Part shown: piece by piece, positions 14,892 to 15,921 of the stretch
Layout of the letters: each line of letters opens with the position of its first letter
How positions within the stretch are numbered: the first letter of the stretch is position 1
Origin: Methanosarcina barkeri MS
Lineage (GTDB): Archaea; Halobacteriota; Methanosarcinia; Methanosarcinales; Methanosarcinaceae
Assembly (NCBI RefSeq): GCF_000970025.1
Contig: NZ_CP009528.1
Coordinates: 4,451,168-4,515,167, forward strand
Direction of reading: 5' to 3'
DNA: 64,000 nt
The notes under the pieces: generated by a model
Database searches by the model: none
Told to the model about the DNA's origin: nothing
What the model saw: the letters and a program-made list of their open reading frames with translations, nothing else
Program-made: the position numbers and the translations under genes

Positions 14892-15560
14892 TTAGCGAAT
14901 ACCTTCGGCTGTAATTCTAAATTCTGCACTTGAACCTTCAGGGCAGGACCGATGTTTGTACAGAATAGCGCGCCTGGTTCCTTCACCGGTTTTTTCAAGC
15001 TGGATTATCGCCTTTGAAATATGTTCCAGGGAACTACCGCCAAGCGGACGCACCCCTCCTGAGGTAATATCGGAATATACCTGGTTGGTTATGACTGCAA
15101 CAAAACCGTGTTTGCGGGCAAGAGCATGCAAATATCCTATCTGGCTAGCAAGTTCTCTGCGGCTTTTCATGCCTGTCTCATCGTCTTCAAGCTCGAACCT
15201 GTAGTATGAGGTTGCAGAATCAAGTATCACGAGACCTATATTCTCACTGGCTATTCTCTCCACTTCCCTTACGGCCGCATATTGTTCTTCAAAATTCAGG
15301 GGTTCATAGATAATGATACTTCTAGCTATTTCTTTTGCATTTTCCCCTGCAATCTGCTTGAATCGAGTAGGAGAAAGCCCTTCGGTATCTATGAAGATGA
15401 CTCTCTGCCCTTGTTTTACGCATTCCACTGAAAGCTGGATGCAGATATTTGTTTTCCCGGTTCCTGCAGCTCCGAAGATTTGAGTCACAATCCCTTTCTC
15501 GAAACCTCCTCCTAGAAGCTCGTCAAGGGGCTTGCAGCCGGAAGATAGTAATTTTTCTAT
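14892..15560 (-). CDS. radB: DNA repair and recombination protein RadB, apparent AUA start
   Basis: RadB is a RecA/RadA-family recombination mediator paralogue without the N-terminal HhH domain of RadA. The product has LLSSGCKPLDELLGGGFEKG, Walker A GAAGTGKT (residues 30-37 from the proposed start), then IFIDTEGLS, Walker B GLVILDSATS, ITNQVYSD, and the C-terminal LYKHRSCPEGSSAEF. The first canonical start in frame is GTG at 15488, which would remove the 24 residues before Walker A that are conserved in the family. Upstream of it the frame is open, with no ATG, GTG or TTG back to the preceding stop. An ATA at 15558-15560 sits exactly where family members start and is preceded by GAGGTG at the normal distance. 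I therefore annotate 222 aa from ATA, either a non-canonical start or a mutated ATG. Confidence 0.85.
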   Translation of the reverse strand: MEKLLSSGCKPLDELLGGGFEKGIVTQIFGAAGTGKTNICIQLSVECVKQGQRVIFIDTEGLSPTRFKQIAGENAKEIARSIIIYEPLNFEEQYAAVREVERIASENIGLVILDSATSYYRFELEDDETGMKSRRELASQIGYLHALARKHGFVAVITNQVYSDITSGGVRPLGGSSLEHISKAIIQLEKTGEGTRRAILYKHRSCPEGSSAEFRITAEGIR

Positions 15561-15921
15561 GAAGTGACACCTCTTTTGTGCTTGGTAAATATAACTGGCC
15601 CATGATATAACGTTTTTTTGTAATTTCCAACCTTTTCAGAAAAATTAACGATTTTCTAAGAGGAATAAAAAAACAAAGTGGATATAAAAGAAATGCTCGG
15701 GTATAGATTCCTAACCCTTTCAATAATTGAAAAAATATATAAGAGTACAGTGAAAACGAGAATGATGATTTGACAATATTTTTTCAAAGTGTGGAGGAAT
15801 AATTCCTTATACATGTTAGCCGTACTGTACCCGAGAAATCGGGTGTGGATATCCCTTAAAGCCTTCTGTGCTTGAAATTATTTCCTTAAAGAAGGCATTT
15901 TTCAAAAACAGGGGTCCTTAA

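Follow-up and report, generated by a model that had tools for sequence, protein, structure and literature searches.

Comparative sequence evidence for a conserved AUA start codon of the recombination gene radB in Methanosarcinaceae

The analyzed DNA, a stretch of 64,000 nucleotides of the Methanosarcina barkeri MS genome (contig NZ_CP009528.1; hereafter, the window), contains a radB gene whose reading frame raises the question of where translation begins. The frame, located on the minus strand, is closed upstream by an in-frame TGA (15636..15638), and between this TGA and the GTG at 15486..15488 it contains no ATG, GTG or TTG, as had been stated in the initial annotation. The GTG is the first canonical in-frame start codon and is located 24 codons downstream of an ATA triplet (15558..15560, minus strand), which is preceded at a distance of 7 nt by the Shine–Dalgarno (SD) sequence GAGGTG (15568..15573, minus strand). 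Neither textbooks nor gene-annotation programs recognize AUA as a start codon. Two readings had been proposed, namely, archaeal initiation at AUA in a recombination gene, or a mutated ATG and a crippled RadB. If begun at the ATA, the coding sequence occupies 14892..15560 of the minus strand and encodes 222 residues plus a stop codon (TAA, 14894-14892). The interval originally assigned to the feature, ending at 15570, was too short: the SD sequence reaches 15573 and the gene extends to 14892.

According to a profile search, the ATA-started translation matches the TIGR02237 (recomb_radB) family with 261.6 bits (cut-off 172.4, E = 5e-78). The translation contains the Walker A motif GAAGTGKT and meets the RecA core criterion; its 222 residues align over nearly the full length of Thermococcus RadB (PDB 2cvf), and an N-terminal helix-hairpin-helix domain is absent. 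The gene is present in the genome as a single copy, the remaining matches being distant RadA/KaiC-like paralogues. The 24 codons that would be lost under annotation from the GTG (15489..15560, minus strand) encode the residues IEKLLSSGCKPLDELLGGGFEKGI, including the LLGGGFEKG motif located before Walker A. Alignment with TIGR02237 and 2cvf identified them as the RadB N-terminus, in agreement with the original assignment of these residues to the family. Their product aligns to residues 1-21 of 2cvf, and M1 of 2cvf pairs with residue 4 of the ATA-started protein. The ATA is thus located at the family start position behind GAGGTG, as had been suggested.

One radB gene per genome was found in 109 of 112 Methanosarcinaceae genomes, and the start region was compared in 108 of them, representing 13 genera. 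The column of the start codon contains ATA in 102 genomes and ATC in the other six, all of which belong to one genus (g6), while ATG, GTG, TTG and ATT were found at this column in none of the 108 Methanosarcinaceae genomes. One further genome (g8), in which an insert spoiled the anchoring and which is not included in the 108, also has ATA at the radB start. The codon of relatives, named in the initial annotation as the means of choosing between its two readings, is therefore ATA or ATC in every genome compared, which indicates a conserved non-canonical start. The genomes are related and the codon counts are not independent; only the count of changes on the gene tree handles kinship. In this tree, the start column changed once, versus 11–27 changes at nine conserved internal isoleucine columns of radB, whose codons switch freely among ATA, ATT and ATC. 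An internal isoleucine codon would therefore not stay ATA. In Methanosarcina, ATA accounts for 198 of 694 internal isoleucine codons of radB, yet the start is ATA in all 31 genomes. On comparative grounds, both the location of the radB start and the action of selection on its codon are established.

The coding signal was analyzed as codon-phase entropy. In Methanosarcina radB, the values for the three codon positions were 0.80/0.50/0.53 upstream of the ATA versus 0.19/0.12/0.84 downstream of it; the upstream bases have no codon periodicity, and the three-base rhythm starts exactly at the ATA. The same picture was obtained for Methanolobus and Methanococcoides. A GAGGTG-type SD sequence precedes the codon in all 102 ATA genomes, mostly with a spacing of 5-7 nt. 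In the window, the motif GAGGTG-N(5-8)-ATA occurs once, versus 1.31 matches expected by chance; it was therefore rejected as evidence by itself, and the significance of the radB start rests on conservation. The gene meets the sequence criteria of a conserved non-canonical start, namely, a non-NTG codon kept in relatives, a strong SD sequence, and no usable canonical alternative. As judged from sequence, without protein evidence, radB starts at a conserved AUA (AUH) codon, with a strong SD sequence driving initiation.

A TATA-box-like element, TTATATC, is located at 15604..15610 of the minus strand, that is, at nt -50 to -44 relative to the ATA. The element is conserved at this position in Methanosarcina, as it is, in the form GTATAT, in Methanolobus, Methanococcoides, Methanohalophilus and others. 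In archaea, the distance from the TATA box to the transcript start is usually about 25 nt. The radB mRNA is thus predicted, from the TATA box and without a mapped transcript start, to begin near -22 and to have a leader of about 22 nt. The predicted folds of five leaders over the radB start were no better than those of shuffled sequences (z from -0.29 to 0.69), and for this reason no leader hairpin is proposed.

Several other locations or origins of the start have to be weighed against these data. The genome of the window taken alone cannot exclude a recent ATG-to-ATA mutation or a sequencing error in this strain, with RadB made poorly or N-terminally short, the sole in-frame canonical codon being the GTG at 15488; the 108 family genomes, which are independent assemblies and all have ATA or ATC and never ATG, reject this explanation and leave it practically no credibility. 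By the same comparison, the reading of archaeal AUA initiation in a recombination gene gains support from relatives. That RadB begins at the GTG itself, without its first 24 residues, would agree with the position of this codon as the first canonical one in the frame. However, only 39 of the 108 genomes have GTG at the corresponding codon, the rest having GTA (34), GTT (18), GTC (14) or another codon (3), and 20 genomes belonging to three genera contain no ATG, GTG or TTG from the preceding stop through codon 31, so that no upstream alternative exists there. Moreover, third-position periodicity is strong over the 24 residues, which evolve as coding sequence and have a counterpart in the solved RadB structure 2cvf. 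The GTG was accordingly judged to be an internal valine codon (Val25) that is free to vary, and initiation at it is scarcely credible. An upstream start, with the ATA as internal isoleucine, has somewhat more in its favor: at codon -15, an ATG or TTG is in frame in 17 genomes, and the GTG inside the SD sequence provides a canonical codon at -3 in 28. Both candidates are nevertheless missing in other genomes, and many Methanolobus and Methanococcoides genomes have a stop codon one or two codons upstream of the ATA, in the order GTG, stop, one codon, ATA (typical Methanolobus radB reads GAG GTG TAA AAG ATA). The sites at codon -15 are located within or beside the TATA box, ahead of the predicted transcript start; codon periodicity is lacking upstream of the ATA, and the tree counts argue against an internal isoleucine. 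Upstream ATG or TTG starts were rejected as a general explanation and are very improbable, although for the many genomes with an in-frame canonical codon within the SD sequence or near -45, considered individually, the use of another start cannot be excluded from sequence.

The comparison was extended beyond Methanosarcinaceae to the family f5 of this order (30 genomes), in which the start column contains ATA in 18 genomes, ATT in seven, ATC in one and ATG in three, one genome having a different arrangement. Several f5 loci, L202, L210 and L218-L220 among them, have no available upstream canonical codon. The exchange of ATG with AUH codons at one fixed column is the behavior of a start codon. 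In the outgroup family f7 and most of f4, ATG is located at or near the radB start place; the haloarchaeal radB loci compared start with GTG and those of other outgroups with ATG. Family f3, which has a different start region, and f2 and f4-g24, where the starts are ambiguous, were left out of the AUH counts. In the RadB tree, each family forms one clade. The AUH start may have originated once in the order and reverted later, or it may have arisen independently in f1 and f5.

Further cases were searched for in 864 kb of the genome and then in 400 kb more (three 400-kb samples and the window, 28% of the genome), by scanning for ORFs whose coding signal continues beyond the first canonical start as far as an ATH or CTG codon with a good SD sequence. 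The radB gene was recovered among a handful of candidates, four others of which were compared across the genus. For the dimethylamine corrinoid protein gene mtbC (C2:568351, minus strand; L390-L414), the start is ATT, preceded by ACGGAGGATGCAAC, in all 24 Methanosarcina orthologues compared, and the paralogues begin with ATG. The gene of a beta-CASP nuclease related to aCPSF1 (C2:2311773, plus strand; L314-L339) starts with CTG in 23 of 26 Methanosarcina genomes and with TTG in the other three, ATG and GTG being found in none. For a nickel/peptide-type solute-binding protein (C2:256076, plus strand; L344-L360), ATT was found in nine and ATC in four of 13 genomes, behind GGAGGAG. A DHA2-type MFS transporter gene (C2:2055995, plus strand; L374-L387) has ATA in eight, ATC in one, GTA in one and GTG in four of 14 Methanosarcina genomes; its SD sequence is AGGAGG(T/C)G in the genome of the window and its close relatives. 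Given radB and four more conserved AUU, AUC, AUA or CUG starts in a partial scan, near-cognate initiation behind a strong SD sequence appears, from genome comparison, to be a habit of Methanosarcina.

Some additional observations were made at these loci. In several species, the mtbC SD region (e.g., in L390) contains an out-of-frame ATG (GGAGGATGCAACATTAGC) that opens a three-codon ORF, ATG CAA CAT TAG, overlapping the ATT start. A tandem paralogue of the solute-binding protein gene (C2:258394; L370) has an apparent ATT start in the arrangement GGAGGTATTTAT-ATT. The scan also yielded unchecked candidates at C2:243873 (minus strand, ATT), 3531653 (plus, CTG), 3703473 (plus, CTG) and 3529973 (plus, ATA); judging by the translations, the one at C2:243873 resembles a group II intron reverse transcriptase and that at 3531653 a DUF255/thioredoxin-type protein. 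The gene of the initiation factor aIF1 was considered as a fellow non-AUG gene and rejected, since it begins with ATG.

The best explanation as a whole is that radB is AUA-initiated through its SD sequence and that selection acts on the codon, most probably as a weak start; we assign it a probability of about 0.85, in the absence of ribosome profiling, N-terminal peptide, reporter or expression data. In the proposed mechanism, the short leader (about 22 nt, as inferred above) would bear GAGGTG, whose pairing with the 3' end of 16S rRNA would position AUA in the P site of the 30S subunit. Initiator Met-tRNA would then pair at the first two codon positions with the third mismatched, so that the protein would begin with methionine; both the tRNA and the methionine are inferred. 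Selection would hold the codon at AUA (AUC in one genus), and the weak start would most probably keep a recombination mediator scarce or tie its output to initiation stringency set by aIF1, as judged by analogy with bacterial infC and sigR. The factor aIF1 is the archaeal initiation fidelity factor (PMC6237735, PMC7531240); in other archaea, it destabilizes complexes formed on non-AUG mRNA (PMC6237735). As a mediator of recombination, RadB promotes RadA polymerization (PMC5480776), which makes control of its dosage plausible, albeit untested. Any limitation or regulation of RadB by the weak codon is thus inferred by analogy.

It is possible, although in our view doubtful, that the ATA is indeed the start but is merely tolerated, as a relic of lax initiation in this order that is neutral and has no regulatory role. 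The presence of conserved near-cognate starts in several unrelated genes of this genome would fit such a relic, as would mtbC, a catabolic gene that is no obvious target for tight repression. On the other hand, ATA-to-ATG is a single transition that should recur if neutral, and it was found in none of the Methanosarcinaceae genomes, though ATG is present in three genomes of f5; in addition, purifying selection favoring AUG is documented in prokaryotes (PMC5622118). It is quite unlikely that AUA is decoded by a dedicated tRNA such as an Ile-type tRNA or a modified initiator, instead of mismatched initiator Met-tRNA: the f5 column accepts ATA, ATT, ATC and ATG, other genes use ATT, ATC and CTG, and general near-cognate tolerance fits both observations better. 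A broader extension of the weak-start reading is only speculative, namely, that Methanosarcinales have a regulon defined by the start codon, in which radB, mtbC, the genes of the beta-CASP nuclease, the solute-binding protein and the drug-efflux-type transporter, and more would be kept on AUH or CUG, with translation co-varying with aIF1-dependent stringency. Such a regulon would be ancestral to at least one family.

Switches from AUG to non-NUG codons are very rare: among 61,358 reconstructed AUG starts, one AUG-to-AUU and two AUG-to-CUG switches were noted (PMC5622118). To the extent that the literature could be searched, a start codon kept at AUA across an entire archaeal family would be the first conserved archaeal AUA start. 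Conserved non-canonical initiation is already known in bacteria; new here appear to be the archaeal setting, the AUA codon, the recombination gene and the family-wide distribution. The radB AUA could serve as a clean natural substrate for studying how aIF1 and aIF2 set start-codon stringency, and the genetic tractability of Methanosarcina acetivorans and M. mazei makes single-base tests feasible. To judge from the genes found in the partial scan, N-termini may be systematically misannotated in methylotrophic methanogens, also in the case of mtbC.

A review of archaea lists no start codons other than AUG, GUG and UUG (PMC7531240). The M. mazei Ribo-seq study gives CTG for 5% of new small ORFs and does not list AUA, and its main text makes no mention of RadB or AUA (PMC11456600). 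The searchable literature yielded no AUA start from archaea and a single AUU start, which is inferred; subscription papers were outside the search, and an earlier mention, e.g., in connection with the MtbC N-terminus, is not excluded. The AUU case is the tubulin gene atubA of Kariarchaeaceae (Asgard), with an inferred ATT (PMC13394414). It resembles radB in being archaeal and in having an N-terminus that needs a rare start behind a ribosome-binding site, but, as far as the available part of that paper goes, it is a single metagenomic gene whose start was inferred in passing, with no conservation analysis reported.

Among the RadB proteins themselves, those of Haloferax and Thermococcus are orthologous recombination mediators (PMC5480776; PDB 2cvf), but haloarchaeal radB differs in its GTG start. 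Bacterial infC, encoding IF3, begins with AUU or AUC and, like radB, has a start without G in the third place that is kept across species, the canonical codon being avoided. Unlike in radB, the product of infC itself discriminates against the codon, which results in autoregulation (PMC5472188), whereas RadB, a RecA-family recombination mediator, is not known to take part in initiation, and there is no reason to expect autoregulation; archaea, moreover, are without IF3 and use aIF1. The other direct bacterial parallel is Streptomyces sigR, whose GTC start is repressed by IF3 and misannotated in databases (PMC5472188): like radB, it is not an initiation-factor gene and has a conserved non-canonical start with a strong SD sequence, misannotated to other starts. 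The sigR start is conserved in one genus and was demonstrated experimentally, its low output having been shown to matter, whereas the radB start, for which there is no experiment, is an archaeal AUA and extends through the whole family and partly beyond it.
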